This document shows, piece after piece, positions 10,728-22,696 of a stretch of 64,000 nt of DNA. The position numbers and the translations under genes are program-made. Source of the DNA: Ornithinicoccus hortensis (lineage in GTDB: Bacteria > Actinomycetota > Actinomycetes > Actinomycetales > Dermatophilaceae); assembly GCF_006716185.1 (NCBI RefSeq), contig NZ_VFOP01000001.1:3720001-3784000 (forward strand), written 5' to 3'. Every line of letters begins with the position of its first letter. The first letter of the stretch is position 1. Below the pieces are notes generated by a model. The model saw only the letters and a program-made list of their open reading frames with translations. It made no database searches and was not told where the DNA came from.

Positions 10728-11975
10728 TCAGACCGCTGCGACGGTCTCCTGCCACACGCCCACGGCCTCTTCGACCTGCTCCTCGTCGACCACGAGCGCC
10801 GGGATGAAGCGGACCACCTGGCCCCACGCGCCGCAGGTGAGCAGCAGCAGGCCGCGCCGCGCCGCCTCCTGCTGCGCCGCTGCGGCGGCCGCGCCGTCCG
10901 GGTTGCCGTCGGCGTCGCGGAACTCGTTGCCCAGCATCAGGCCCAGGCCGCGCACGTCGGTGATCCGGTCGTCGCCCGCGGCGACCTTCTCGAGGCCGGC
11001 CCGCAGCTGCTCGCCGCGCGCGGCGGCGTTCTCGACCAGCCTCTCCTCCTGGATCACGTCCAGGGTGGCGATGGCCGCGGCGCAGGCGACGGCGTTGGCA
11101 CCGTAGGTGCCGCCCTGGGAGCCCGGCCAGGCCTTGGCCATCAGCTCCTCGGAGGCGGCGATGCCGGAGAGCGGGAAGCCGGAGGCCAGCCCCTTGGCGG
11201 TGATGACCACGTCCGGCTTGCCGTCGAAGTGGTCGTGGCCCCAGAACTTCCCGGTGCGCCCGAACCCGGTCTGCACCTCGTCCAGGATCAGCAGGATGCC
11301 GTGCTTGTCGGCCCGCTCGCGCAGGCCGGCCAGGAACTCGGCGTTGGCCGGGACGTAGCCGCCCTCCCCGAGCACCGGCTCGACCAGGAAGGCCGCCGTG
11401 TCGGCGGGGGCGCTGACCGTCTGCAGCGTGTAGTCGAGCTGGGCCAGCGCGAACTTCGTGGCCTCCTGCTGACTCCACCCGAAGTGCGTGGGGTCCGGGA
11501 ACGGGGAGATCGCCACGCCGGCCATCAGCGGGGAGAAGCCCGAGCGGAACTTGGTGCCGGAGGTGGTCAGCGACGCGGCGGCGACGGTCCGGCCGTGGAA
11601 CCCGCCGTGGAAGACCACGATGTTGGGCCGGCCGGTGGCCTGGCGGACCAGTCGCAGGGACGCCTCCACGGCCTCGGACCCCGAGTTGGCGAAGAAGACG
11701 CGGTTCAACCCGGCCGGCAGGACCTCACCGAGCCGCTCGGTGAGGGTGAGCAGCGGGCGGTGCATCACGGTGGTGTACTGCGCGTGGATGATCTTGCCGA
11801 CCTGCTCCTGGGCGGCGGCCACCACCTTCGGGTGGGCGTGCCCGGTGCTGGTGACGCCGATGCCCGCGGTGAAGTCCAAGTAGCGGCGATCGTCCTCGTC
11901 GAAGATGAGCGCTCCCTCGCCGCGTGCTGCAATGACTCCAGTGGCTTGCTTTAGAACCGGTGACAACGTCGCCAC
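10728..11975 (-). CDS. Class III PLP aminotransferase (GABA/diaminobutyrate type, DoeD-like)
   Basis: A 415-residue fold-type I transaminase. The PLP lysine is in ITAKGLASGFPLS, preceded by LILDEVQTGFGRTGKFW with the cofactor Asp. The N-terminal FTAGIGVTSTGHAHP and FANSGSEAVEASLRL match omega-amino-acid aminotransferases such as GabT. In the island context the best guess is the L-2,4-diaminobutyrate transaminase step of ectoine breakdown (DoeD role), with a GABA aminotransferase as the alternative. GTG at 11975 follows AAAGGAGG by 7 nt. The gene is divergent from the aldehyde dehydrogenase, and an ATTGTCGACAAT palindrome lies between them. Confidence 0.88.
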   Translation of the reverse strand: MATLSPVLKQATGVIAARGEGALIFDEDDRRYLDFTAGIGVTSTGHAHPKVVAAAQEQVGKIIHAQYTTVMHRPLLTLTERLGEVLPAGLNRVFFANSGSEAVEASLRLVRQATGRPNIVVFHGGFHGRTVAAASLTTSGTKFRSGFSPLMAGVAISPFPDPTHFGWSQQEATKFALAQLDYTLQTVSAPADTAAFLVEPVLGEGGYVPANAEFLAGLRERADKHGILLILDEVQTGFGRTGKFWGHDHFDGKPDVVITAKGLASGFPLSGIAASEELMAKAWPGSQGGTYGANAVACAAAIATLDVIQEERLVENAAARGEQLRAGLEKVAAGDDRITDVRGLGLMLGNEFRDADGNPDGAAAAAAQQEAARRGLLLLTCGAWGQVVRFIPALVVDEEQVEEAVGVWQETVAAV

Positions 11976-11994
11976 GGCGGGCCTCCTTTTGGTA

Positions 11995-12008
11995 GATTGT
12001 CGACAATC
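11995..12008. promoter_or_regulatory. GntR/FCD-type operator, copy 1 (GATTGTCGACAATC)
   Basis: A perfect 14-bp palindrome lies between the divergent aminotransferase (start 11975) and aldehyde dehydrogenase (start 12050) genes. The core TTGTCGACAA fits the TNGTNNNACNA pattern known for FadR-subfamily GntR regulators. The same core is found at 15025-15036 and, with one change, at 19728-19739. The GntR/FCD gene at 13550-14272 is the obvious candidate binder. Confidence 0.85.
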
Positions 12009-12049
12009 AGAGCGTAACCCACTGCAACGTCTTTGAGGAGTAGTGCGCC

Positions 12050-13516
12050 GTGAAGGATTCCACCCGGTCTGTCGTCCAGGACGTGCCCAAGCAGTTGTTC
12101 ATCGGCGGCGAATGGTCCGACGCCTCCGGCGGCGCCACCTTCGCCGTGCTGAACCCCGCGACCGGGGAGGAGATCTGCCAGGTCGCCGACGCCACGCCGG
12201 AGGACGCCCGCCGCGCGCTGGACGCCGCGGTCGCCGCCCAGCCGGCGTTCGCGAGGACGACCGCGATGCAGCGCCACGAGATCCTGATGACCGCGTTCCG
12301 GCTGCTCCACGAGCGGATCGAGGACCTGGCGCTGCTGATGACCACCGAGATGGGCAAGCCGTTGGCCGAGGCGCGCGGTGAGATCAGCTACGCCGCGGAG
12401 TTCCTGCGCCACTTCGCCGGCGAGGCGCTGCGGATCGACGGCGGCTACCAGTCCGCACCGCAGGGCAACGCCCGCTTCCTGGTCGCCAAGCAACCGGTCG
12501 GGCCGTGCCTGCTGATCACCCCCTGGAACTTCCCGATGGCGATGGGCACCCGCAAGATCGGCCCGGCCATCGCGGCCGGCTGCACCAGCGTGATCAAGCC
12601 GGCGCACCAGACGCCGCTGTCGATGCTGGCCTTCGTGGACATCCTGCGGGAGGCCGGGCTCCCCGACGGCGTGGTCAACTGCGTCGCCGCCACCGACTCC
12701 GGCGGCACCATGGAGCCGCTGATCCGCTCGGGGCTGGCCCGCAAGCTCTCCTTCACCGGCTCGACCCGGGTCGGCAAGATCCTGCTCGAGCAGTGCGCCG
12801 ACAAGGTGCTGCGCACCTCCATGGAGCTGGGCGGCAACGCCCCGTTCGTGGTGTTCGAGGACGCCGACCTGGACGAGGCGGTCGCCGGGGCGATGGCGGC
12901 CAAGATGCGCAACATGGGCGAGGCCTGCACGGCGGCCAACCGGATCTACGTGCACGAGTCGGTCATCGAGGAGTTCGGCGCCAAGCTCGCCGCGAAGATG
13001 GGCGCGCTCACCGTCGGCGACGGGGCGGAGGACGGGACCGACGTCGGGCCGCTCATCGACGAGGCCGGCCTGGGCAAGGTCCGCACCCTGGTGTCCGACG
13101 CCGTGGACCGGGGTGCGACCGTGCTCACCGGCGGGGACCCGGTCGAGGGCCCCGGCTACTTCTACCGCCCGACGGTACTGACCGGCGTCCCGAGGGATGC
13201 CCGGATGTCGGCGGAGGAGATCTTCGGACCGGTCGCCCCGCTCACCCCCTTCACCACGGAGGAGGAGGCGGTCGCGCTGGCCAACGACACGCCATACGGG
13301 CTCGTCTCGTATGTCTTCACCAACGACCTGCGCCGGGCGCTGCGGATGGCCGAGGCGATCGAGAGCGGCATGGTCGGGCTGAACCAGGGTGTGGTGTCCA
13401 ACCCCTACGCCCCGTTCGGCGGGATGAAGGAGTCCGGGCTGGGCCGCGAGGGCGGGTCGGTCGGGATCGAGGAGTTCCTGGAGACCAAGTACATCGGGAT
13501 CGCGCTGGCCGACTGA
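12050..13516 (+). CDS. NAD(P)-dependent semialdehyde dehydrogenase (succinate- or aspartate-semialdehyde, GabD/DoeC-like)
   Basis: A 488-residue aldehyde dehydrogenase. The catalytic Cys293 lies in GEACTAANR, the general base Glu259 in MELGGNAPF, and the oxyanion Asn in TPWNFPMAMGTRK. SFTGSTRVGK is the Rossmann phosphate-binding turn. Sequence style and length match succinate-semialdehyde dehydrogenases. It would oxidise the semialdehyde made by the divergent aminotransferase: aspartate semialdehyde in an ectoine-type route, or succinate semialdehyde in a GABA route. The start is GTG at 12050, 42 nt from the shared GntR-type palindrome. It ends 33 bp before the convergent regulator gene. Confidence 0.92.
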   Translation: MKDSTRSVVQDVPKQLFIGGEWSDASGGATFAVLNPATGEEICQVADATPEDARRALDAAVAAQPAFARTTAMQRHEILMTAFRLLHERIEDLALLMTTEMGKPLAEARGEISYAAEFLRHFAGEALRIDGGYQSAPQGNARFLVAKQPVGPCLLITPWNFPMAMGTRKIGPAIAAGCTSVIKPAHQTPLSMLAFVDILREAGLPDGVVNCVAATDSGGTMEPLIRSGLARKLSFTGSTRVGKILLEQCADKVLRTSMELGGNAPFVVFEDADLDEAVAGAMAAKMRNMGEACTAANRIYVHESVIEEFGAKLAAKMGALTVGDGAEDGTDVGPLIDEAGLGKVRTLVSDAVDRGATVLTGGDPVEGPGYFYRPTVLTGVPRDARMSAEEIFGPVAPLTPFTTEEEAVALANDTPYGLVSYVFTNDLRRALRMAEAIESGMVGLNQGVVSNPYAPFGGMKESGLGREGGSVGIEEFLETKYIGIALAD

Positions 13517-13549
13517 CCCCGTCGCGGTCCGGGCCTGCGCGCGGGCTGG

Positions 13550-14272
13550 TCAGCCCTCGGTGTCCGGGTCCTCGGCGGCGAGCGCCTCCTCGCTCATCCC
13601 GACCAGCTCGCTGACCGCGTCGGCCATGTGCTTGACGATGAGCTCGTCCAGCAGGTCGGCGTCGCCGTCGCGCAGCGCCCGGGCGATGGCCTGGTGCTCG
13701 CGCACCCGCACCTTGTCGTTCTCGTAGGTGCTGCCCAGTGCATGGATGCAGATCCGGGCCTCCGCCGCCTGGGTCTGGTGGATCCGTCGCAGCCGCTCGC
13801 TCTCGGTGAGTTCGACGAGCAGCACGTGGAAGGCGATGTCGGCCTCGGCCACGCCGTGGGAGTCCCCGGCCTCGGTGGACTCGGTCATCGCCTCGACCGC
13901 ACCCTCCAGGGCGTCGGCGGCCGCGGACCGGTCGGCGGGGTCGGACCGGACCAGCACCCCCGCGGCGCACCGCTCGATGGCCTCCCGGGCGAGGTACATG
14001 TCCCGCACGTTCTCCGGGGTGAGGTCGACCACGAACAGGCCGCGGTTGCGGATCGAGGTGAGCAGGCCCTCCTGGGTGAGACGCTGCAGGCCCTCGCGCA
14101 ACGGGCCGCGGCTCACCCCGAGCTGGCGGGCCAGCTCGGCCTCGTGCAGCTGGGCACCGGGCGGGAAGTCGCCCCGGGCGATGGCCTCCCGGACCCGGGT
14201 CGCGATCCGGCTCGGGGTCGACTGCTGGACCAGCGGCGCGAGCACCGTCGTGGCGCCGTCGTCCCCGTTCAC
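13550..14272 (-). CDS. GntR family regulator with FCD ligand-binding domain
   Basis: A 240-residue protein. The winged HTH (about 15-80) includes QLHEAELARQLGVSRGPLRE and LTQEGLLTSIRNRGLFV. It is followed by an all-helical FCD domain (about 90-225) with AREAIERCAAGVLV, ADIAFHVLLVELTES and VREHQAIARALRDGD, which supply the Asp and His residues that often bind a metal and a carboxylate ligand. Members usually repress catabolic operons until an organic-acid inducer binds. The GTG start at 14272 overlaps the stop of the upstream EutA-like gene by 4 nt (GTGA). It is therefore cotranscribed with that gene and probably autoregulated through the palindrome at 15025-15036. Confidence 0.93.
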   Translation of the reverse strand: MNGDDGATTVLAPLVQQSTPSRIATRVREAIARGDFPPGAQLHEAELARQLGVSRGPLREGLQRLTQEGLLTSIRNRGLFVVDLTPENVRDMYLAREAIERCAAGVLVRSDPADRSAAADALEGAVEAMTESTEAGDSHGVAEADIAFHVLLVELTESERLRRIHQTQAAEARICIHALGSTYENDKVRVREHQAIARALRDGDADLLDELIVKHMADAVSELVGMSEEALAAEDPDTEG

Positions 14273-15003
14273 CGGGCCACCCGGGGGCGGAACAGGGTGC
14301 CTAGGCCGGTGAGGTCGTCCGGGACCCCGCGACCGGTCAACCGCAGGCCCTCCCAGACCGTCACCTGGTTGGCGGTGAGCACCGGCATCCCGGCGACCTC
14401 CTCCAGGTGGTCCAGCCAGGCCAGCGTGTGCATCGCGGTGTCCGGGACCAGCACCGCGTCGGCGCCCTCCCGGTCCGCCCCGGCGACGATGGCTGCGACC
14501 TGCTCGCGACCCAGGGTCCCGACCTCGGCGGCGGTGACGATGCCGTGGCTGCCCATCGAGAGCACCTCGATCCCACCGCGCTGTAGGAAGCTCACGAAGT
14601 GCTCCGCGACATCCTGCGGGTAGGAGGCGGCCACCGCCACGCGGCGCAGCCCCAGGTCGTGGGCCGCGTTCACGAACGCGATCGAGGTCGACGACGTGGG
14701 CAGCCCGGTGGCCTGTGCGAGACGGTCCACCTGCTCCCGCGCGCCGTCCCAGCCGAAGACAAATGACCCGGACGTGCAGGCCCACATGACCGCGTCCGGC
14801 CGGTGCGCGCTGGTCAGTTCCCGGGCGCCCTCGACCAACCGGTCGTGACCCCCCAGGTCGAGCAGCGCGTCCACCCGGTGCGCGTCCTCCCCGACCGAGG
14901 TGTGCACGAGGGGCAGCCGGATGCGGTCCCCGAGACGGGCCTGGAGCGCCGGGAAATCGTCCTCGGCGCTGTGGCCGGGATACAGCAGTCCCACCGTGGT
15001 CAT
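14269..15003 (-). CDS. EutA-like Asp/Glu racemase-fold protein (maleate isomerase/arylmalonate decarboxylase family), paralogue 1
   Basis: A 244-residue two-domain racemase-fold protein. The first catalytic cysteine is present as Cys76 in WACTSGSF. At the second catalytic position the sequence reads VPDTAMH (Asp188) instead of the usual cysteine. HLEEVAGMPVLTANQVTVWE is the conserved C-terminal end of the EutA/maleate cis-trans isomerase group. The family includes EutA of ectoine-utilisation loci, maleate isomerase and arylmalonate decarboxylase. It is the first gene of the pair with the GntR regulator and lies directly downstream of the second palindrome. Its paralogue at 18912-19703 keeps both cysteines, so this copy may have different chemistry. 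Confidence 0.85.
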   Translation of the reverse strand: MTTVGLLYPGHSAEDDFPALQARLGDRIRLPLVHTSVGEDAHRVDALLDLGGHDRLVEGARELTSAHRPDAVMWACTSGSFVFGWDGAREQVDRLAQATGLPTSSTSIAFVNAAHDLGLRRVAVAASYPQDVAEHFVSFLQRGGIEVLSMGSHGIVTAAEVGTLGREQVAAIVAGADREGADAVLVPDTAMHTLAWLDHLEEVAGMPVLTANQVTVWEGLRLTGRGVPDDLTGLGTLFRPRVAR

Positions 15004-15024
15004 CGGGCGCCTTCCCTTCCGGAG

Positions 15025-15036
15025 ATTGTCGACAAT
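15025..15036. promoter_or_regulatory. GntR/FCD-type operator, copy 2 (ATTGTCGACAAT)
   Basis: A perfect 12-bp palindrome lies 21 nt upstream of the EutA-like/gntR operon start at 15003. It is identical in its core to copy 1. Placement this close to the ATG suggests it overlaps the promoter and gives negative autoregulation. Confidence 0.85.
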
Positions 15037-15096
15037 ACTAACCTAGCGAGGCGTGATCGCGGCTCGGATCGTGGCTGGTGGACCGTCCGATCACGA

Positions 15097-15164
15097 CTGG
15101 TAGACGGTTTGGGGCACTGGTGGCATGTCCGGACATGCCACCAGTGCCCCGCAGCGTCTACCAG
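15097..15164. repeat. 68-bp near-perfect palindrome in the gap between two operons
   Basis: Positions 15111-15130 and 15131-15150 form a perfect 40-bp palindrome (half: GGGGCACTGGTGGCATGTCC). It is flanked by a further 10-bp perfect stem (CTGGTAGACG / CGTCTACCAG) across a 4-nt bulge on each side. It lies between the end of the M20 gene (15239) and the palindrome/promoter of the eutA-like gene. It may act as a terminator or a REP-like element. A weaker partial match is at 46075-46103. Confidence 0.9.
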
Positions 15165-15238
15165 TGGCGGCGCCCAGACGTGGAGCAGCGGGGGCACCTG
15201 TGGCGCCAGCGTCGCAGGCAGCGGAGTCGGCACGGTCG

Positions 15239-16432
15239 TCACGGGCCGAGCAGCCGCAGCGCCGCGAGCGCATAGGCCCGGGCGGCCACGAGCAGTTCGT
15301 CGACCCCGACCGACTCGTCCGGGCGGTGCGCCTGGTCCGCGACCGAGCCGGGGCCCAGCACCACGACCGGCACCCCGGCGTCGCGGGCCAGGAAGCCGCC
15401 GTCGCAGGCCGCCGTCCACCCGGCGAGCGGCAGCCCCGGGCCGCCGGCGGTGGCCAGCGCCGAGTCGGCCGCCCGCACCAACGGGTGGTCGGCGGAGGTC
15501 TCGAAGCCGGGCATGTCCATCGGCATGGTGACCTCGATCCCCAGGCCGCGGGCGGGCAGGTCCAGCAGGTCGAGCCGCGCCCGGATCGCGGCGAGCACCT
15601 CGGCGGGGTCCTCCTCCGGCAGCAGCCTCCGGTCGGCCGCGATGTGGCAGCGGGCGGGCACCGTCGAGCCGCCGCTGCCGCCCGTGACGACGCCGACGTT
15701 CCAGGTCGCCGGGCCCACCAGCGGGTGCGCATCGGCCGCGAGCTCGTGGTGCCACCGCTCCAGCTCGGTGACGACCGCGGCCGCGCCGTAGATGGCGTTG
15801 CGGCCGTCGTCGGGGTTGCCGGCGTGCGCCGCGACCCCCTCGATCTCCACCTCGACGTAGGAGGCCCCGCGGGCGGCGATGATCAGTTGCAGGTCGGTGG
15901 GTTCGGCGACGATGCACCCGGCCAGCCGGAGCCGACCCGGGTCCCGCACGTAGTCCCGGATCCCCAGACCCATCATCTCCTCGTCGACGACCGCGGCCAG
16001 TTCCAGCGGCCCGGCGAGGGCGACGCCCGCCCGGCGCAAGGCGTCCATGGCCACCACGGACGCGGCCAGTCCCCCGAGCATGTCGGTCGACCCGCGGCCG
16101 TAGACGCGCCCGTCCCGCAGCTCGCCGCCGAACGGGTCGACGGTCCACCCCTCGCCCAGCGGGACGACGTCGGTGTGCCCTAGCAGCAGCAGGCCGGAGC
16201 CGTCCCCACCGGGCAGGACGGCGCTGACGTTCGGCCGGCCGGGCGCCACCTCGGTGACGTCGACGGAGAAGCCGCGCTCCCGGCATACGGAGGCCAGCAG
16301 CTCGGCCCGGCCCTGCTCCTCCCCCGGCGGGTTGGTGCCCGGCACGCGGACCAGCGCCCGGGTCAGCGCGACCAGGTCTGCGGGGTCGATGAGGTCCAGG
16401 ACCTCCTGCTCCCGCGGGGTGGGGCCGGCCAC
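15239..16432 (-). CDS. M20 family metallohydrolase/deacylase (ArgE/DapE-like)
   Basis: A 397-residue di-zinc hydrolase. LLLLGHTDVVP and GRGSTDMLGG hold the first metal ligands and the bridging Asp. VVDEEMMG holds the catalytic and ligand glutamates, and the dimerisation domain contains GVAAHAGNPDDGRNAIY. Family members remove acyl groups from amino acids (ArgE, DapE, carboxypeptidase G2). Here it could deacetylate N-acetyl-2,4-diaminobutyrate, taking the place of DoeB/EutE, which belong to another fold; that is inference from context. GTG at 16432 follows the stop of the upstream aminotransferase by 1 nt, indicating coupling. An in-frame ATG at 16483 would overlap that gene by 50 nt. Confidence 0.88.
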   Translation of the reverse strand: MAGPTPREQEVLDLIDPADLVALTRALVRVPGTNPPGEEQGRAELLASVCRERGFSVDVTEVAPGRPNVSAVLPGGDGSGLLLLGHTDVVPLGEGWTVDPFGGELRDGRVYGRGSTDMLGGLAASVVAMDALRRAGVALAGPLELAAVVDEEMMGLGIRDYVRDPGRLRLAGCIVAEPTDLQLIIAARGASYVEVEIEGVAAHAGNPDDGRNAIYGAAAVVTELERWHHELAADAHPLVGPATWNVGVVTGGSGGSTVPARCHIAADRRLLPEEDPAEVLAAIRARLDLLDLPARGLGIEVTMPMDMPGFETSADHPLVRAADSALATAGGPGLPLAGWTAACDGGFLARDAGVPVVVLGPGSVADQAHRPDESVGVDELLVAARAYALAALRLLGP

Positions 16433-16433
16433 C

Positions 16434-17648
16434 TCAGCCCTCGGCACGTTGCCGGTCGACGGCCGCCCGCAGCCGGCGCACACCCTCGCGGATCCGGTCC
16501 GGCGGCGTCGAGGCGAAGCAGAGCCGCAGGGCGTCCGGGAAGCGGCCCTCGGCGGAGAAGGCGTTGCCCGGGATGTAGGCCACCCCCTCGGCGAGCGCGA
16601 TCTTGAACAGCGCCTCGGTGTCGATCGCCGGCTCGAAGGTCACCCACAGGAAGAAGCCGCCCTCGGGGTCGGTCCACCGGGCGATGTCCCCGAAGTGCTC
16701 GGTGAGCGCCTCCTGCATGGCCTCCTTGCGCTTGCGGTACTGCACCCGCTGGGTGGCCAGGTGCTCCTGCAGGTAGCCACCGCGCAGGAAGCCGGCGACC
16801 AGGCGCTGCATCGGCAGGTTGGTGCAGGTGTCCATCGCCTGCTTGGCGTTGATCAGCAGCTGCCCCAGGCCGGGGTCGGCATCGACCCAGCCGACCCGCA
16901 AGCCGGGGGCGATGATCTTGGAGAAGGTGCGCACCGAGAAGACCAGCGGGCTGCCGGCGGCCAGCTCGTGCAGCGTCGGCAGCTCCTCCCCCGCGAAGCG
17001 CAGCATCCCGTAGGGGTCGTCGTCGATGACCATGCTGCCCCACTCCTGCGCGAGCTCGAGCAGCTCACGGCGGCGGGCCAGCGACATGGTCGCCCCGGAG
17101 GGGTTCTGGAAGGTGGGGATCGTGTAGATCACCTTCGGGCGCCGCCCGGTGCGGGCCGCCTCCTCGCGCAGGTGCTCCACGACCATGCCCTCGTGGTCGA
17201 CCGGCACCTCGAGCAGCTGCGCCTGGTAGGACAGCGCGGTGGCGCTGCCGTTGGTGTAGGTCGGGGACTCCACCGCCACCAGGTCGCCCGGGTCGACGAA
17301 CAGCTTGAAGCCCAGGTCCAGGCCCTGCATGCCACCCGCGGTGATGGTGAGCCGCTCGGGCGTCGTGGCGTCGCTGGTGCCCTCGAGCGTCTCCAGCAGC
17401 GCCTCGCGCAGCGGCGGGTCGCCCTCGGTGGCCGCGTAGTCGTAGGCGTCCGAGGCCCCGACCCCCAGGGCCTGCCTGCCCACCTCGGCCAGCGCCTCGG
17501 TCGGGATCGCCTCGGGGGCCGGGCTGCCCATCGCGAACCGCACGATGTCGTGGGTCTGGCTCGCCAGGAGCGAGGTGCTGGAGTCGATCACCGACCCGAC
17601 CAGGTCCGCCGTGCGGCTCGCCAGGGGGAGGGTGGGCTGGGTGCTCAT
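16434..17648 (-). CDS. PLP-dependent aminotransferase, class I/II (2-aminoadipate/MocR-type catalytic domain)
   Basis: A 404-residue fold-type I aminotransferase without a DNA-binding domain. PLP-binding features are the lysine in VRTFSKIIAPGLRVGW, the Asp/Tyr pair in VIDDDPYGMLRF, and TIPTFQNPSGATMS with the Asn that contacts the pyridine ring. It resembles LysN/2-aminoadipate transaminases and the enzyme half of MocR regulators. In ectoine loci the regulator EnuR carries this fold fused to a GntR head; here the head is missing and a separate GntR/FCD gene is nearby. ATG at 17648 is preceded by GAGAGG. It is the third gene of a four-gene operon. Confidence 0.9.
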   Translation of the reverse strand: MSTQPTLPLASRTADLVGSVIDSSTSLLASQTHDIVRFAMGSPAPEAIPTEALAEVGRQALGVGASDAYDYAATEGDPPLREALLETLEGTSDATTPERLTITAGGMQGLDLGFKLFVDPGDLVAVESPTYTNGSATALSYQAQLLEVPVDHEGMVVEHLREEAARTGRRPKVIYTIPTFQNPSGATMSLARRRELLELAQEWGSMVIDDDPYGMLRFAGEELPTLHELAAGSPLVFSVRTFSKIIAPGLRVGWVDADPGLGQLLINAKQAMDTCTNLPMQRLVAGFLRGGYLQEHLATQRVQYRKRKEAMQEALTEHFGDIARWTDPEGGFFLWVTFEPAIDTEALFKIALAEGVAYIPGNAFSAEGRFPDALRLCFASTPPDRIREGVRRLRAAVDRQRAEG

Positions 17649-17692
17649 CGGGGTGCCTCTCGTTGCGGTGTCTTCGTCGGTATGCAGTGTGC

Positions 17693-18919
17693 TCACTTCT
17701 TCTTCACGACCAGTTCCTGCGGGAGCGGGGCCAGCCGCTCCGGGCCGTCCTCGCCGACCAGGACCGGCTCGGACAGCTCGTAGCCCCAGCCGTCCATCCA
17801 CATCCCCAGGATGACGTGGAAGGCCATCCCGGGCTGGATGAGCGTCAGGTCCTCGGCGCGCAGGCTGATCGTGCGCTCGCCCCAGTCCGGCGGGTAGCCG
17901 ATGCCGATCGAGTAACCGACCCGGGACTCCTTGACGTAGCCGTAACGGGCGATGGTGTCGGCGAACGCCGCCTGGACCTGGCGGCCGGTCGAGCCCGGGC
18001 GGAGCATGTCCAGGGCCGCGTGGAGCCCCTCGGTGACCGCCCCGGCGCAGCGGCGCAGCTCCTTGGGCGGCTTGCCCAGGCTCACCGTGCGGGCCAGCGG
18101 CACGTGGTAGCGGTGGTAGACGCCGGCCAGCTCGATGGTCGTCGCTTCGCCCTTGCGCAGCGGCAGGTCGCTCCAGGTCAGGTGCGGGGTGCCGGCGGTC
18201 TCCCCGGTCGGCAGCATCGGCACGATCGCCGGGTAGTCGCCACCGAGCTTGCGGGCGCCCAGCGCCTGGGCGTACTGGATGTGGGCGACCACGTCGCACT
18301 GCCGCCGGCCCGGCTCCACGTTGTCCAGCGCGATCTGCATGACCGTCTGCGCGATCTCCCCGGCCACCCGCATCTTGTCCTGCTCCAGCGGCGACTTCAC
18401 GATCCGGACCCAGTTGACCAGCTCGAGGCTGTCGACCAGTTCGGCGTGCTGCAGCCGGTCGCGCAGCGCCAGGTAGCTGCGCGCGGAGAAAAAGTGCGCG
18501 TCCGTCTCCGCCGCGACCCGGCTGCCGCGAGCGTCCTCCAGCACCCCGACCTCCAGCGCCTTCTCCGCGATCCAGTCGAACGGGTGCACGTCGGGGCGGT
18601 GCACCAGCTCCTCCGGGTAGCCGTGGATCAGGTCGGTCGACAGGTATGCAGTGTAGTGCGCGCCCTGGGCGTCCATCGCCCGCATGAACAGCTGCGGCTC
18701 CCCGGTCGCCGGCACGATCAGGCACTGCGGCGTGTAGAACGACCAGGCGTTGTAGCCGGTCAGGTAGTAGAGGTTGGCCGGGTCGGCCACCACCAGGGAG
18801 GAGATCTCCCGCCGGGCCATCGACTCCTGCACGCGGGCGAGCCGGTCGCGGTACTCCCGGACCGGGAAGGGACGGGACTCGATGTTCTCCCACTCGACGA
18901 GGACGCCGCCGTCAGCCAT
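17693..18919 (-). CDS. M24-family hydrolase closely resembling ectoine hydrolase DoeA/EutD
   Basis: A 408-residue creatinase-fold protein. Several segments recall the DoeA/EutD group as I know it: DPANLYYLTGYNAWSFY near residue 45, GGDYPAIVPMLPTGE near 228, ELAGVYHRYHVPLARTVSLG near 265, and GYSIGIGYPPDWGE and FHVILGMWMDGWG near the C-terminus. Ectoine hydrolases open the ectoine ring to N-acetyl-2,4-diaminobutyrate. Xaa-Pro peptidase is a less likely alternative because the metal-dependent peptidase signature is absent. ATG at 18919 overlaps the stop of the upstream EutA-like gene by 8 nt. The C-terminus ends in a Lys run. Confidence 0.85.
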   Translation of the reverse strand: MADGGVLVEWENIESRPFPVREYRDRLARVQESMARREISSLVVADPANLYYLTGYNAWSFYTPQCLIVPATGEPQLFMRAMDAQGAHYTAYLSTDLIHGYPEELVHRPDVHPFDWIAEKALEVGVLEDARGSRVAAETDAHFFSARSYLALRDRLQHAELVDSLELVNWVRIVKSPLEQDKMRVAGEIAQTVMQIALDNVEPGRRQCDVVAHIQYAQALGARKLGGDYPAIVPMLPTGETAGTPHLTWSDLPLRKGEATTIELAGVYHRYHVPLARTVSLGKPPKELRRCAGAVTEGLHAALDMLRPGSTGRQVQAAFADTIARYGYVKESRVGYSIGIGYPPDWGERTISLRAEDLTLIQPGMAFHVILGMWMDGWGYELSEPVLVGEDGPERLAPLPQELVVKKK

Positions 18920-19703
18920 GGCCGTCCATCTCGCCGACGACCGGTGCCACGCTCCGCGCCCGCCGGCGCCGCCCGCCCAGCAGTGACTGCCCGGGGCCCT
19001 TGGCCCGCAGCCCCATCCGGGCCATGGCGGCCCACATGGTGACCTGGTTCGCGGTGAGCACCGGCACCCCCAGCTCGGCCTCCATCGGCGCGATCAGGTC
19101 GTAGCACATCAGGTTGGTGCAGGAGACGAAGACCGCGTCGCAGGAGTTGACCGCGGCGGCCCGGACCAGGGCCACCGTCTCCTCGTAGGGCACCCGCCAG
19201 ATCTGACCGGACAGGCCGAACGAGGACACCCCGGTCACCTCGATGCCGGCCTCGGCCAGGAACGCCTCGAGGCGCAGCGTGATCGCCTCGTCATACGGCG
19301 TGGCGACCGCCAACCGCCGGATGCCGAGGTGACGCAGCGCCTCGACGAGGGCGCCGCTGGTGGTCACGGCGGCGGGCGCGCCGGCCCCCAGCATGGCCTC
19401 GACGAGGGAGCGCTCCCCCTCGAGCCCGCCGACGAAGCTGCCGGAGGTGCAGCCGTAGGCCACCACCCTCGGCTCGGGAACCAGCAGTTCCCGGGTGCAG
19501 GCGGCCACCATGTCGTGGTCGGAGACCAGCACGGCCTGGTCCACGGTGACCGGCACCGCGGCATACGGCGTGCGGGTGATCATCAGGTTGGCGCCCTTGG
19601 GCACCCAGCGCCAGAGCTCCCGGTCCAGCGCGAAGTCGTAGGGCACCACGACACCGACCGCGGGACCCGCGGTCGAGGTGGCGCTCAGACGATGAGTGGT
19701 CAT
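18912..19703 (-). CDS. EutA-like Asp/Glu racemase-fold protein, paralogue 2
   Basis: A 263-residue racemase-fold protein with both catalytic cysteines: Cys85 in YGCTSGSF and Cys195 in VSCTNLMCYD. The C-terminal ELGVPVLTANQVTMWAA matches EutA and maleate cis-trans isomerases, which act on small dicarboxylic or acylated amino acids. In ectoine-utilisation operons EutA accompanies the hydrolase EutD, and here the M24 hydrolase follows directly with an 8-nt overlap. ATG at 19703 was chosen because the family N-terminus begins shortly after it. It is the first gene of the four-gene reverse operon (EutA-like, M24, aminotransferase, M20). Confidence 0.88.
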   Translation of the reverse strand: MTTHRLSATSTAGPAVGVVVPYDFALDRELWRWVPKGANLMITRTPYAAVPVTVDQAVLVSDHDMVAACTRELLVPEPRVVAYGCTSGSFVGGLEGERSLVEAMLGAGAPAAVTTSGALVEALRHLGIRRLAVATPYDEAITLRLEAFLAEAGIEVTGVSSFGLSGQIWRVPYEETVALVRAAAVNSCDAVFVSCTNLMCYDLIAPMEAELGVPVLTANQVTMWAAMARMGLRAKGPGQSLLGGRRRRARSVAPVVGEMDGHG

Positions 19704-19727
19704 GCTGCATGGTGCCTCACCACGTCG

Positions 19728-19739
19728 ATTGTTGACAAT
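19728..19739. promoter_or_regulatory. GntR/FCD-type operator, copy 3 (ATTGTTGACAAT)
   Basis: A 12-bp near-palindrome, differing from copies 1 and 2 by one central base, lies between the divergent EutA-like operon (start 19703) and the hydroxyacid dehydrogenase operon (start 19768). It would let one regulator control both directions. Confidence 0.8.
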
Positions 19740-19767
19740 AAGACACTCGCTTCCTACCGTGACTTTG

Positions 19768-20757
19768 GTGACCCAGCCCCGGCCCGTGGTGGCCGTCCTC
19801 TGCGCCCAGACCGACGACGCACCGCCGTTCCTCGACGAGCTGGCCGACCGCATCGACTTCCGGCTGACCGACGCGGCCGGGCTCGCGCAGGCCCTGCCCG
19901 GGGCCGACGGGCTGTTCCTGTGGGACTTCTTCTCCACCGCGCTGCGCGACGCCTGGGGGGCGCGCGACCGGTTGCGCTGGATCCACGTCGCCGCCGCGGG
20001 GGTGGACACCCTGCTGTTCGACGACCTGCGCACCTCCGACGTGATGGTGACCAACGCCCACGGCACCTTCGACCGGCCGATCGCCGAGTACGTCCTGGGC
20101 GCGGTCCTGGCCCACGCCAAGCTGGTCCACGAGAGCCACGACCTGCAGCGGGAACGCACCTGGAAGCACCGCGAGACCCGCAGCGTCCAGGGGTCGCGGG
20201 CCCTCGTGGTCGGCACCGGCGGCATCGGCCGGGAGATCGCCCGGCTGCTCACCGCCGTGGGCGTGCGGGTCGGCGGCGCCGGCAGCCGGGCCCGCGACGG
20301 CGACCCCGACTTCGGTGCGGTGGTGGACAGCGCCGAGCTCGCCGCCCACGTAGGCGGGGTCGACTACCTGATCAACGCCGCGCCGCTCACCCCCGCCACG
20401 GCGGGCCTGATCGACGCCGCGGTGCTGGCCGCGCTGCCCGCCCACGCCCACCTGGTGAACATCGGCCGCGGACCCACGGTCGTCGAGGACGACCTGGTGG
20501 CGGCGCTGCGCGCGGGCGAGCTGGACGGCGCCACGCTGGACGTCTTCACCACCGAGCCGCTGCCCCCGGAGTCACCGCTGTGGGACGCCCCCGGCGTGGT
20601 GGTGACCGCCCACATGTCCGGCGACGTCCTGGGCTGGCGGGACACCCTGGCCCGCCAGTTCGTGGACAACGCCCGGCGCTGGGTGGACGGTGCGCCGCTG
20701 GCCAACGTCGTCGACAAGGAGCGTGGCTACGTGCACAAGGAGGGAGGCGTCCGATGA
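19768..20757 (+). CDS. D-isomer-specific 2-hydroxyacid dehydrogenase family protein
   Basis: A 329-residue NAD(P)-dependent dehydrogenase. The nucleotide-binding turn is VVGTGGIGREIARLL. The catalytic arginine is in NIGRGPTVVEDD, the glutamate lies in TTEPLPPESPLW, and the histidine is in VVTAHMSGD. It interconverts a 2-oxoacid and a D-2-hydroxyacid; the substrate in this operon is unknown. The start is uncertain: GTG at 19768, TTG at 19765 or GTG at 19759. None has a clear ribosome-binding site, so the mRNA may be near-leaderless. Its stop overlaps the amidase ATG (ATGA). Confidence 0.9.
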   Translation: MTQPRPVVAVLCAQTDDAPPFLDELADRIDFRLTDAAGLAQALPGADGLFLWDFFSTALRDAWGARDRLRWIHVAAAGVDTLLFDDLRTSDVMVTNAHGTFDRPIAEYVLGAVLAHAKLVHESHDLQRERTWKHRETRSVQGSRALVVGTGGIGREIARLLTAVGVRVGGAGSRARDGDPDFGAVVDSAELAAHVGGVDYLINAAPLTPATAGLIDAAVLAALPAHAHLVNIGRGPTVVEDDLVAALRAGELDGATLDVFTTEPLPPESPLWDAPGVVVTAHMSGDVLGWRDTLARQFVDNARRWVDGAPLANVVDKERGYVHKEGGVR

Positions 20758-22193
20758 GTGACACCGACCTGTCGATGCTCACCGCGACCGAGCTGGCGCA
20801 AGGTTACGAGCAGGGCCGCTTCACCCCGGTCGAGGCCACCGAGGCGGCGCTCGCCGCGGTCGCCGAGCGCAACGGCCCGGTCAACGCGATGCTCTTCGTG
20901 GACGAGGAGGCCGCCCTGGCCGCGGCGCGCGAGTCGACCACCCGCTGGGCGGAGGGCAGACCACTCGGCCCGGCTGACGGCATACCGACGGCGCTGAAGG
21001 ACCTGCTGCTGACCAAGGGCTGGCCCACCCTGCGCGCCAGCACCCTGATCCCCGACACGGGACCGTGGGACGTCGACTCCCCCGCGACGGCCCGGCTGCG
21101 CGAGGGCGGGGCGGTGCTGTTCGGCAAGACCACGACCCCGGAGTTCGGGTGGAAGGGGGTCACCGACTCGATCCGGCACGGCGCCACCGGCAACCCGTGG
21201 GACCCGGGGCTGACGGCCGGCGGGTCCAGCGGCGGTTCGGCGGCGGCGGTCGGGCTCGGGATGGGGCCCTGGTCGGTGGGCACCGACGGCGGGGGCTCGG
21301 TGCGGATCCCGGCGGCGTTCACCGGGACGGTCGCGCTCAAGCCGACCTTCGGGCAGATCCCGATCTTCCCGCCGAGCCCCTACGGCACGCTCTCGCACGC
21401 CGGCCCGATGACCCGCTCCGTGCGCGACGCCGCGCTGCTGATGGACCTGCTCACCCTCCCGGACAGCCGGGACTGGCACGCGCTGGCCACGCCGACGCGG
21501 TCGTATGTCGACGGGCTGGACGACGGCGTCGCCGGGCTGCGGATCGCCTACTCCCCCACCCTCGGCTACGGCACCAACGACCCGGAGGTCGAGGCCGCCG
21601 TGACCGCCGCCGTGCAGGTGCTGGCCGAGGCCGGGGCGCGCGTGGAGCAGGTCGACCCGGGGGTGCAGGACCCGGTCGACGCCTTCCACGTGCTGTGGTT
21701 CACCGGCGCGGCCAAGGTCGTCGAGCACTACGGGCCGGACGCGCTGGAGCAGATCGACCCGGGCCTGGCCGACGCGATCCGCCGGCACGGGCTGGGGGCC
21801 AGCGCCTCCGACTACCTCGACGCCACGGCGGTCCGGATGGACCTCGGCGTGCGGATGGGCGCCTTCCACGAGGAGTGGGACCTGCTGCTCACCCCGACGA
21901 TGCCGATCCCGGCCTTCCCGGTCGGTCAGCCCGCCCCCGACGGGTGGCCCTCCGACCTGTGGACCTCGTGGACGCCCTACACCTACCCGTTCAACATGAC
22001 CCAGCAGCCCGCGCTCAGCCTCCCCTGCGGGTTCACCGGCGACGGGCGTCCGGTGGGCCTGCAGGTGGTGGGCCCGCGGCACGCCGACGCCCTGGTGCTG
22101 CGCGCCGGGCAGGCCTACCAGGAGCGCACCGACTGGCACCGGCGGGTGCCGCCGCTGGTGCACCCACCCCACCCCACGACGGAGGAAGCATGA
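20754..22193 (+). CDS. Amidase (amidase signature family)
   Basis: A 479-residue amidase-signature hydrolase with the Ser-cisSer-Lys triad. The lysine is in IPTALKDLLL, the cis-serine in LTAGGSSGGSAAA, and the nucleophilic serine in TDGGGSVRIPAAF. It hydrolyses a carboxamide to acid and ammonia. The substrate is unknown but it sits between a hydroxyacid dehydrogenase and a DUF3830 protein, all joined by ATGA overlaps, so they probably act in one route. AAGGAGGGA precedes the ATG. Expression should respond to the same palindrome as the EutA/DoeA-like operon. Confidence 0.93.
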   Translation: MSDTDLSMLTATELAQGYEQGRFTPVEATEAALAAVAERNGPVNAMLFVDEEAALAAARESTTRWAEGRPLGPADGIPTALKDLLLTKGWPTLRASTLIPDTGPWDVDSPATARLREGGAVLFGKTTTPEFGWKGVTDSIRHGATGNPWDPGLTAGGSSGGSAAAVGLGMGPWSVGTDGGGSVRIPAAFTGTVALKPTFGQIPIFPPSPYGTLSHAGPMTRSVRDAALLMDLLTLPDSRDWHALATPTRSYVDGLDDGVAGLRIAYSPTLGYGTNDPEVEAAVTAAVQVLAEAGARVEQVDPGVQDPVDAFHVLWFTGAAKVVEHYGPDALEQIDPGLADAIRRHGLGASASDYLDATAVRMDLGVRMGAFHEEWDLLLTPTMPIPAFPVGQPAPDGWPSDLWTSWTPYTYPFNMTQQPALSLPCGFTGDGRPVGLQVVGPRHADALVLRAGQAYQERTDWHRRVPPLVHPPHPTTEEA

Positions 22194-22696
22194 GCCGGTT
22201 CATCACCATCGGGTTGGAGTCCCGGGGCGTCACCGCGCGCGCCCGGCTGCTCGACGACGCCGCACCCCGCACCTGCGCCGCGGTCTGGGACGCGCTGCCG
22301 CTGGGCGGGCAGGTCTACCACGGCAAGTACGCCCGCAACGAGATCTACACCCTGCTCGAGACGTTCAGCCCCCGGGACCCGGGCCGGGAGAACACCACGG
22401 TCACCCCGATCCCCGGTGACGTCTGCTGGTTCACCTTCTCCGGCGACGACCTCGGCAACCCGGCCTACGGGTACGAGACGGAGGAGGAGCACCGCCAGCA
22501 GGGAGCGATCATCGACCTGGCGGTCTTCTACGGCCGCAACAACCTGCTGATCAACGGCGACCAGGGCTGGGTCCCCGGCAACGTCTTCGCCACGATCACC
22601 GAGGGCCTGGACGAGCTGGCCGCCGCCTGCCAGGACATCTGGATGGGCGGCGCCCGCGGCGAGTCCCTCACCTTCGCCCGCGCCACCACTCCCTAA
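22190..22696 (+). CDS. DUF3830 family protein (cyclophilin-like fold)
   Basis: A 168-residue protein of DUF3830, a family with a cyclophilin-like barrel and no assigned activity. Recognisable parts are AAVWDALPLGGQVYHGKYARNE (its WDALPLGGQVYHGKYARN core), PIPGDVCWFTFSG and FYGRNNLLINGDQGWVPGN. It starts with an ATGA overlap after the amidase and GGAGGAAGC as ribosome-binding site. DUF3830 genes often travel with amidases and racemase-fold proteins in catabolic loci, suggesting substrate binding or a small isomerase step. It is the last gene of the forward operon. Confidence 0.85.
   Translation: MSRFITIGLESRGVTARARLLDDAAPRTCAAVWDALPLGGQVYHGKYARNEIYTLLETFSPRDPGRENTTVTPIPGDVCWFTFSGDDLGNPAYGYETEEEHRQQGAIIDLAVFYGRNNLLINGDQGWVPGNVFATITEGLDELAAACQDIWMGGARGESLTFARATTP

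Follow-up and report, generated by a model that had tools for sequence, protein, structure and literature searches.

An operator-linked gene island with a DoeA-like hydrolase in Ornithinicoccus hortensis, probably used for the consumption of ectoine and/or 5-hydroxyectoine

Which compound is consumed by means of an island of eleven catabolic or regulatory genes in the actinobacterium Ornithinicoccus hortensis, and which protein switches these genes? The island occupies positions 10,728-22,696 of the 64,000 nucleotides analyzed here (the window), which correspond to bases 3,720,001-3,784,000 of a one-contig genome of 3.94 Mb. A preliminary description of the window had read it as a catabolic island of ectoine-like type that encodes a DoeA-related hydrolase, an idea that our analysis supports. 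Profile scans located all the genes it had listed, with the domains named for them, together with two that it had left out, i.e. a GntR/FCD regulator gene (13,550-14,272) and the gene of a EutA-like protein (AGR1, 14,269-15,003). Based on gene content, synteny, a shared operator, family membership, catalytic residues and the osmolyte-type transporters of orthologous loci, we regard the regulon as real and conserved, and most probably meant for (hydroxy)ectoine. More specifically, we hold with fair confidence that it is induced by its substrate and serves for eating ectoine and/or 5-hydroxyectoine, both of which are common salt-stress protectants. What is new is the regulator, the deacylase and the second module of this regulon.

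The link to ectoine starts from the M24 protein (17,693-18,919, minus strand), which profile, PDB match, tree and alignment alike identify as a close relative of the ectoine hydrolase DoeA/EutD. The DoeA model TIGR02993 gave its best score (426 bits), followed by DoeA_2 with 180 bits, and its best PDB matches were the ectoine hydrolase DoeA chains 6twj/6twk (372 bits), the next chain reaching 87. Out of 169 alignment columns without variation among six DoeA rows (6twj plus five from plasmid records), 71% are kept in the window protein, as compared with 75% in Priestia, 70% in Halostagnicola, 41-44% in four Agrobacterium/DoeA_2-type rows and 28% in a creatinase-like M24 protein of the same genome. 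The DoeA motifs PPDWGER and PHLTW are kept as well, and E263 is aligned with Glu 255 of 6twk, which we take to be the covalent nucleophile of this ectoine hydrolase (EutD); the catalytic glutamate is present in 49 of 49 orthologs. Since peptidases exist in both the M24 and the M20 superfamilies, ordinary peptide or amino-acid catabolism, with the M24 protein as an Xaa-Pro peptidase and the neighboring M20 protein as a dipeptidase, was also considered, but it is very improbable. Four of the five M24-family metal ligands, as we presume them from prolidase 1pv9, are gone from the window protein, as in DoeA, with P274 and other residues in their places, and the protein is far nearer DoeA than any peptidase model. 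The Xaa-Pro peptidase assignment was rejected on account of these lost ligands. The start of the M24 gene overlaps the end of the gene for a second EutA-like protein, AGR2 (18,912/18,919), in keeping with the coupling of these two genes that had been pointed out earlier.

Fifty related loci, amounting to 0.97 Mb, were compared with the window; 49 of these have an M24 ortholog at at least 46% identity, the remaining one being L108. Counts out of 51 include the window, and some loci are cut at their edges. The gene order, for which the preliminary description had put forward synteny as a check, is kept in many actinobacterial families, which argues that the cluster is not due to chance.

A palindromic operator, ATTGTYGACAAT, was found at 11,996, 15,025 and 19,728, i.e. 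in two divergent gaps and at one site before AGR1. The first copy (ATTGTCGACAAT, 11,996-12,007) separates a class III aminotransferase gene (ATIII, 10,728-11,975, minus strand) from that of an SSADH-like aldehyde dehydrogenase (12,050-13,516, plus strand), while the second, again ATTGTCGACAAT (15,025-15,036), lies upstream of the minus-strand AGR1 gene. The third (ATTGTTGACAAT, 19,728-19,739) is situated between AGR2 (18,912-19,703, minus strand) and a D-2-hydroxyacid dehydrogenase (DHDH, 19,759-20,757, plus strand, starting with GTG at 19,759 or 19,768). Window bases 4001-29000 thus hold three matches to the palindrome, as against none in 200 out of 200 dinucleotide shuffles, and a single further exact copy exists in the 3.94 Mb genome, at 3,870,429. 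In the 50 related loci, the motif ATTGTNNACAAT occurs 128 times, spread over 42 of the 50, with no occurrence of the reversed pattern and 0-1 in each of five shuffles.

The position of the operator at promoters was assessed with the core TTGTNNACAA, counted from 300 bases upstream of a gene to 30 bases inside its start. Among the M24-type loci, the core precedes DHDH in 43/43, AGR2 in 35/35, ATIII in 26/26, SSADH in 26/27 and AGR1 in 24/28 cases, and it is also found at a FAD-linked oxidase gene in 15/17. At genes internal to the operons it is virtually absent (MocR-type aminotransferase 0/42, GntR 0/33, M20 2/39, DUF3830 1/36). Less clean counts were obtained for M24 (15/48, mostly behind AGR2), amidase (7/35) and TtuC (0/3). 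Extra copies of the core are seen inside the M24, amidase, DHDH, MocR-type and DUF3830 coding sequences of the Kribbella loci L035-L045.

As for the regulator, the GntR/FCD gene (minus strand; PF00392 and PF07729 above cut-off; present in 34/51 loci) is the likely switch of the regulon, probably a repressor. Its product would bind GATTGTYGACAATC-like sites at the three promoters and let go of them when an intermediate accumulates. The preliminary description had instead seen a free MocR-type aminotransferase in place of the EnuR regulator. This protein (16,434-17,648, minus strand), a MocR/LysN-type aminotransferase of fold type I occurring in 45/51 loci, has no helix-turn-helix domain and was therefore rejected as regulator; with 141 of the 480 bits of the EhuR model, it falls outside EnuR (MocR/GabR).

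The absence of a transporter, as reported earlier, is true of the island in the window but not of its kind: Ehu genes occur in L054, L034 and L044, a ProP-like carrier in others and a BCCT carrier in L100. In Nonomuraea (L054), EhuABCD is inserted between M20 and AGR1, a gap that is empty in the window, and all four proteins passed their NCBIfam cut-offs (EhuA 370 > 345, EhuB 247 > 191, EhuC 258 > 197, EhuD 260 > 205). The same gap holds the Ehu genes of Nakamurella (L044), where EhuB (264 > 191) has as its best PDB match 2q88, presumably the ectoine-bound EhuB of S. meliloti, with 219 bits and the next match at 71. Ehu genes are furthermore situated behind M20 in L052, a cut locus, and beyond ATIII in L034, with EhuC (214) and EhuD (252) over the cut-off and a fragment of EhuB (188) just under it. 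The operator core precedes EhuB in all three readable loci (L034, L044 and L054, L052 being cut), and likewise the BCCT gene of L100 (1/1), which belongs to the same genus as the window. ProP-like carriers occur in 12/51 loci, and 20/51 have, in place of Ehu or beside it, a gene similar to FAD/Fe-S D-2-hydroxyacid dehydrogenases; one such oxidase was scanned and reached 396 of the 1350 bits of YdiJ, below the specific cut-off. In the window's own strain, the substrate would enter by an unlinked carrier, the candidates being an Ehu-like ABC operon at 1,057,403-1,060,623 (1.057 Mb) and the BCCT carriers, for which matches were found at three places. An EctC match in the genome suggests that the strain probably makes ectoine as well. 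At 3795990-3797419 of the genome, the BCCT profile gave two neighboring partial matches (21-211 and 219-485), each in a different open frame.

From these components a route can be proposed, in which every reaction, like the DNA binding and the inducer, is predicted. The M24 protein would open the cyclic amidine by means of the DoeA-type glutamate E263, giving an N-acetyl-diaminobutyrate, from which the M20 protein (15,239-16,483, minus strand; start uncertain, overlapping the stop of the aminotransferase gene) would strip the acetyl group. The latter passes the ArgE/DapE deacylase model TIGR01910 (243.8 bits, cut-off 217.6) and keeps the catalytic residues H, D, D, E, E and H in 40-41 of 41 orthologs. 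We propose that it is the N-alpha-acetyl-diaminobutyrate (alpha-ADABA) deacylase; the ArgE substrate, N-alpha-acetylornithine, is one carbon longer. That an M20 hydrolase takes the deacetylase slot, as the preliminary description had it, is in line with these scores and with the lack of a DoeB/EutE match in the genome. Identity with DoeB2 or with the Priestia-type M20 (L089) was rejected, neither showing significant similarity. ATIII and the SSADH-like dehydrogenase would then convert the terminal amine to a carboxylate, with aspartate as the product, or 3-hydroxyaspartate if hydroxyectoine is the substrate. ATIII is DoeD/GabT/ArgD-like (PF00202, 394 bits; best specific match PRK08117, 444 bits, below the cut-off of 574) and was seen in 28/51 loci, many of which are cut at the edge, while the enzyme in the DoeC-like slot has PF00171 and scores 565 bits against a TIGR01780 cut-off of 646. 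The MocR-type aminotransferase and DHDH, which keeps its catalytic R, E and H, would process the aspartate or 3-hydroxyaspartate. The remaining proteins, i.e. AGR1, AGR2, an amidase and DUF3830, may constitute a further module, acting on this substrate or on one closely related to it. The amidase (20,754-22,193, plus strand) is an amidase-signature hydrolase of the PRK06169 type (NF004815, 708 > 506; K/S/S kept), and the DUF3830 protein (22,190-22,696, plus strand; PF12903, 223 bits) has a cyclophilin-like fold.

This second module proved to have an existence of its own. The amidase, DUF3830 and hydroxyacid dehydrogenase genes had been described as co-regulated extras of the island; they do share the operator, but rather than extras they form, with AGR1 and AGR2, a separate module (module B) that is also found alone, without M24 in the locus. 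The window accordingly represents a DoeA-like module (M24, MocR-type, M20) set into module B. For this comparison DUF3830 was sampled in the phylum (33/296 genomes) and in the class (64/394 genomes), and 58 loci around its long form were read, 12 from the phylum sample (G260 left out) and, out of the 54 long-form genomes of the class, the 46 that had not been covered already; the window and G040 (L104), both with M24 beside DUF3830, were set aside as known M24-type. Amidase was present in 56 of the 58 loci, DHDH in 55, AGR1 in 55 and AGR2 in 54, with all five core genes in 52. At the score limits used, M24, MocR-type and M20 genes occurred in none of the 58, L168 having a distant M24 at 30-32%. 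Whole-genome searches of 13 DUF3830 genomes (the 12 of the phylum sample and G260) found 11 without a match to the window M24 at 1e-20 and two with matches of only 31-32%. Conversely, M24 stands without amidase, DUF3830, AGR1 and AGR2 in six loci (L025, L029, L030, L032, L057 and L094), with the MocR-type gene present in five of these and M20 in three.

Of the 58 DUF3830 loci, 35 have GntR and 36 the operator. The core precedes ATIII in 25/25, SSADH in 22/23, DHDH in 33/55, DUF3830 in 18/58 and AGR2 in 11/54 cases, as well as a Glu/Leu-dehydrogenase-like gene in 4/5, BCCT in 2/3 and ProP in 2/3. Complete EhuABCD sets adjoin 20 of the loci, all in one genus (g31), and two Ehu subunits are found at the edge of L173, which is from another family. 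The Ehu subunits scanned in L163, L165 and L173 were all over the cut-off (8/8), with the full EhuABCD in L163. ProP-like and BCCT carriers were found in three loci each. Five loci (L168-L171 and L247) combine DUF3830 with a gene resembling Glu/Leu/Phe/Val dehydrogenases and with a carrier of the BCCT or ProP-like type; in two of them, L169 and L170, the operator separates the carrier gene from that of the dehydrogenase.

Tentatively, and with slightly less than even confidence, we suggest that module B provides Actinomycetota with a so far undescribed pathway for 5-hydroxyectoine (or ectoine) that does not depend on EutD, in which the ring would be opened without M24, the candidates being DUF3830 and the amidase. 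The hydroxyl, which EutABC supposedly removes, would here be retained as far as a 2-hydroxy acid of D configuration, for instance 3-hydroxyaspartate, for disposal by D-2-hydroxyacid, tartrate/D-malate or FAD-linked dehydrogenases, and the window would combine module B with the DoeA-like module under one operator. As reasoned from the structures, ring opening, deacetylation, transamination and oxidation of (4S,5S)-hydroxyectoine should give (2S,3R)-3-hydroxyaspartate, the carbinol of which has D-malate geometry, so that the D-specific dehydrogenases of these clusters would fit. Such a route would differ from that in R. pomeroyi, which rapidly converts hydroxy-DABA into DABA according to the consulted part of PMC8739950; the same source describes the EutABC activities in hydroxyectoine use as uncertain.

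A possible, though rather doubtful, alternative is that one regulator governs two substrates, M24-MocR-M20 serving ectoine and amidase-DUF3830-AGR1-AGR2-DHDH serving hydroxyectoine or a third osmolyte, and that the window carries both modules because both substrates can be used. The separability of the modules speaks for it, as seen in the six M24 loci without amidase, DUF3830, AGR1 and AGR2 and in the 52 of 58 loci with all five module-B genes and no M24, MocR-type or M20 gene. So does the fit of several enzymes to a hydroxylated substrate, namely the D-2-hydroxyacid dehydrogenases, a tartrate-dehydrogenase-like gene by SSADH and a 3-hydroxyaspartate lyase. The second of these is over its cut-off of 470 in L044 (505 bits) and L164 (484 bits) and is the same-strand neighbor of SSADH in L164, L204 and L245; a threo-3-hydroxyaspartate ammonia-lyase gene (539 > 452) follows DUF3830 in L039. 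Both genes count in favor of our main reading, too. On the other hand, DHDH, GntR, ATIII, SSADH and the operator are common to both kinds of locus, and since Ehu imports both ectoines, the transporter cannot distinguish between them.

Several observations weigh against the assignment of the regulon to (hydroxy)ectoine. With TIGR02993, the M24 protein scores 426 bits (425.7 in the genome search), below the curated cut-off of 613. In a tree of 44 rows (midpoint root, long branches flagged) it groups with 19 close actinobacterial rows (100/100) and then with L103-L105 (96/94), outside an eight-row group (100/100) made up of the six DoeA rows and two rhizobial relatives, a placement outside the strict DoeA/EutD group that the preliminary description had named as a ground for refutation. 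A wider 14-row clade around DoeA, adding Priestia, Halostagnicola, Shinella and others, has weak support (80/60), and its fork with the window clade has a support of 90/87; the Tsukamurella DoeA_2 branches outside. The protein is thus outside DoeA proper but adjacent to it, its exact place being moderately supported, and although it falls short of DoeA both by score and by clade, it probably works like DoeA. Further points concern the other enzymes, as profile scans found no EutB, EutC or transporter among the eleven genes (in agreement with the earlier report of missing EutB/EutC) and no DoeB/EutE (TIGR02994) match anywhere in the genome. ATIII and SSADH belong to the right superfamilies with no specific DoeD/DoeC model above cut-off, and L025, L027, L029, L093 and L094 yielded no M20.

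The transport evidence has weak sides as well. The one ProP-like carrier scanned scores 404 against a ProP cut-off of 544, and the core is found before ProP in two of six M24-type loci (L027 and L047). The Ehu-like operon of the own genome passes for EhuA only (351 > 345; EhuB 173 < 191, EhuC 163 < 197, EhuD 200 < 205), and the 831 bases read ahead of and around its start contain no operator motif. Outside the M24-type islands, all 20 complete linked Ehu sets come from one genus and lack the operator (EhuB core 0/20), as do the unlinked Ehu operons of module-B genomes (0/20). Out of 394 genomes, EhuB and DUF3830 are both present in 43, DUF3830 alone in 11, EhuB alone in 21 and neither in 319, but this association is inflated by kinship and overstates the link, because 15 of the 20 unlinked Ehu operons lie next to a class III aminotransferase gene (31-34% identity), in our reading a putative ectB of ectoine biosynthesis. 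Finally, the model does not explain the fourth exact operator copy. It precedes a GNAT-like gene by 66 bases, and the gene after that one encodes a DHA2-family efflux MFS protein (TIGR00711, 310 > 230); there being no catabolic gene there, the copy is either fortuitous or marks a member of the regulon that is unexplained.

Another alternative is that the substrate is no ectoine at all and that the Ehu-, ProP- or BCCT-type carriers import some other osmolyte or a different diamino acid, cyclic or N-acylated. Besides the M24 protein lying outside the strict DoeA group, the absence of EutB/EutC and DoeB, and linked or unlinked Ehu operons without operator in module-B genomes, it can be adduced for this reading that both BCCT and ProP are broad carriers and that the L169 BCCT passes the general model and no specific one. 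We nevertheless consider it unlikely, in view of the full EhuABCD above cut-off in both the orthologous island L054 and the module-B locus L163, and of the catalytic glutamate and the two DoeA motifs kept in M24. Despite the placement of the M24 protein, the regulon evidence favors (hydroxy)ectoine.

The two EutA-like proteins of module B differ in their active sites. Both are far from the EutA model TIGR02990 (cut-off 318), with 99.8 bits for AGR2 and 78.4 for AGR1, and hence outside that family. In the module-B rows, AGR2 has the first active-site Cys in 55/55 and the second in 54/55, a racemase/epimerase pattern that S. medicae EutA, having both, shares. AGR1, an EutA/arylmalonate-decarboxylase-like protein with Cys at the first and Asp at the second place in the window, has Asp at the second place in 55/55 module-B rows, the first being Cys in 51 and Ser in four. 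In 33 M24-type rows its first place is Cys throughout and its second Asp in 27 and Cys in five, with one unread; the five are probably AGR2 matches in loci without AGR1. The best match of AGR1 is PDB 3ixl, the sequence of which has Cys at the first and Ser at the second place. For DUF3830, PDB 3kop from Arthrobacter, described as cyclophilin-like, aligns with residues 1-166 (269 bits). Its structure model is poor (mean pLDDT 67), and the Foldseek matches obtained with it, 3kop and, weakly, Pictet-Spenglerases (E about 3e-4), were for that reason not relied upon. No DUF3830 match was found in the plasmid records. Short-form DUF3830 genes lie inside urate-catabolism clusters in two of the three loci read (the third being L175), L174 and L176, beside OHCU decarboxylase and urate oxidase and, in L176, also HIUase. 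The family thus recurs where N-heterocycles are broken down, and a role in such breakdown is possible.

Compared with the Proteobacterial enuR-(ehuABCD or uehABC)-eutABCDE-asnC-ssd-atf cluster, the island shares a DoeA-related ring hydrolase, a class III aminotransferase, an SSADH-like enzyme, an EutA-like protein and, in some orthologous islands, EhuABCD. It differs in that the MocR-type EnuR is replaced by a GntR/FCD gene plus a conserved palindrome and EutE by an ArgE/DapE-type M20, in the lack of EutB/EutC, and in adding the amidase, DUF3830, a second EutA-like protein, the D-2-hydroxyacid dehydrogenase and a free MocR-type aminotransferase. Within the arylmalonate decarboxylase/EutA/maleate isomerase family (PF17645), AGR2 shares both Cys with S. 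medicae EutA and AGR1 stands apart with Cys and Asp, both being far below the EutA and AMDase cut-offs. The Tsukamurella plasmid cluster DoeB2-DoeD-DoeA_2-DoeC (L129) is likewise actinobacterial, with a DoeA-type M24 beside a non-EutE deacetylase, an aminotransferase and SSADH, but its DoeA_2 is 30% identical to the window M24 and branches outside, its DoeB2 gives no significant alignment with the window M20, and no amidase, DUF3830 or AGR is annotated in the stretch.

Putative Gram-positive and archaeal clusters, including some in Actinomycetota and the Bacillota pucR-eutBCD-atf-abgB-thrA-adh, are reported in the consulted part of PMC13188858. These also have an M24 EutD homolog, an amidohydrolase replacing eutE and, depending on species, Ehu, Ueh, MFS or BCCT carriers, but they were sought via EutD and EutB, carry eutB/eutC and have a PucR regulator; in the portion of its main text at hand the words amidase, GntR, Kribbella and Ornithinimicrobium do not appear. 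The M20 of Priestia (L089), of the M20D type as far as can be read, has no significant match to the window M20. In extracts of PMC5924519, ectoine consumers are described as confined to Proteobacteria, and those of PMC5884947 mention that ehuABCD lies downstream of ectD in Nocardiopsis and that E. coli takes up ectoine via ProP and ProU. Our literature search, at the level of titles and abstract openings, found no description of this cluster, and no paper mentioning DUF3830, ectoine with DoeB2, or hydroxyectoine with hydroxyaspartate. The predicted operator, present in dozens of actinobacterial loci, makes ectoine consumption by Gram-positive bacteria directly testable, and the regulon suggests roles for DUF3830 and a hitherto unassigned amidase. 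With module B, there may be a second chemistry by which the ectoine ring is opened. The regulon would also alter predictions as to the soil bacteria that recycle these osmolytes.

Some minor features remain to be mentioned. A 35-nt inverted repeat without spacer, 91% complementary, is found at 15,096-15,165 between M20 and AGR1, perhaps as the transcript end of the M20 operon; this is the gap that holds Ehu or FAD-oxidase genes in some relatives. The rows L103-L105 represent a second actinobacterial M24 clade, joined to that of the window and mostly found in other gene neighborhoods. In L035, L036, L043 and L045, an amino-acid permease and a DUF1989 gene adjoin the island, and a DUF1989 gene also adjoins the M24 genes of L055 and Shinella L087. 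Lastly, genome positions 152000-170000 (L122) read as a creatinine-type cluster, with creatininase-like, creatinase-like M24, BCCT carrier, SHMT and sarcosine-oxidase-like genes.

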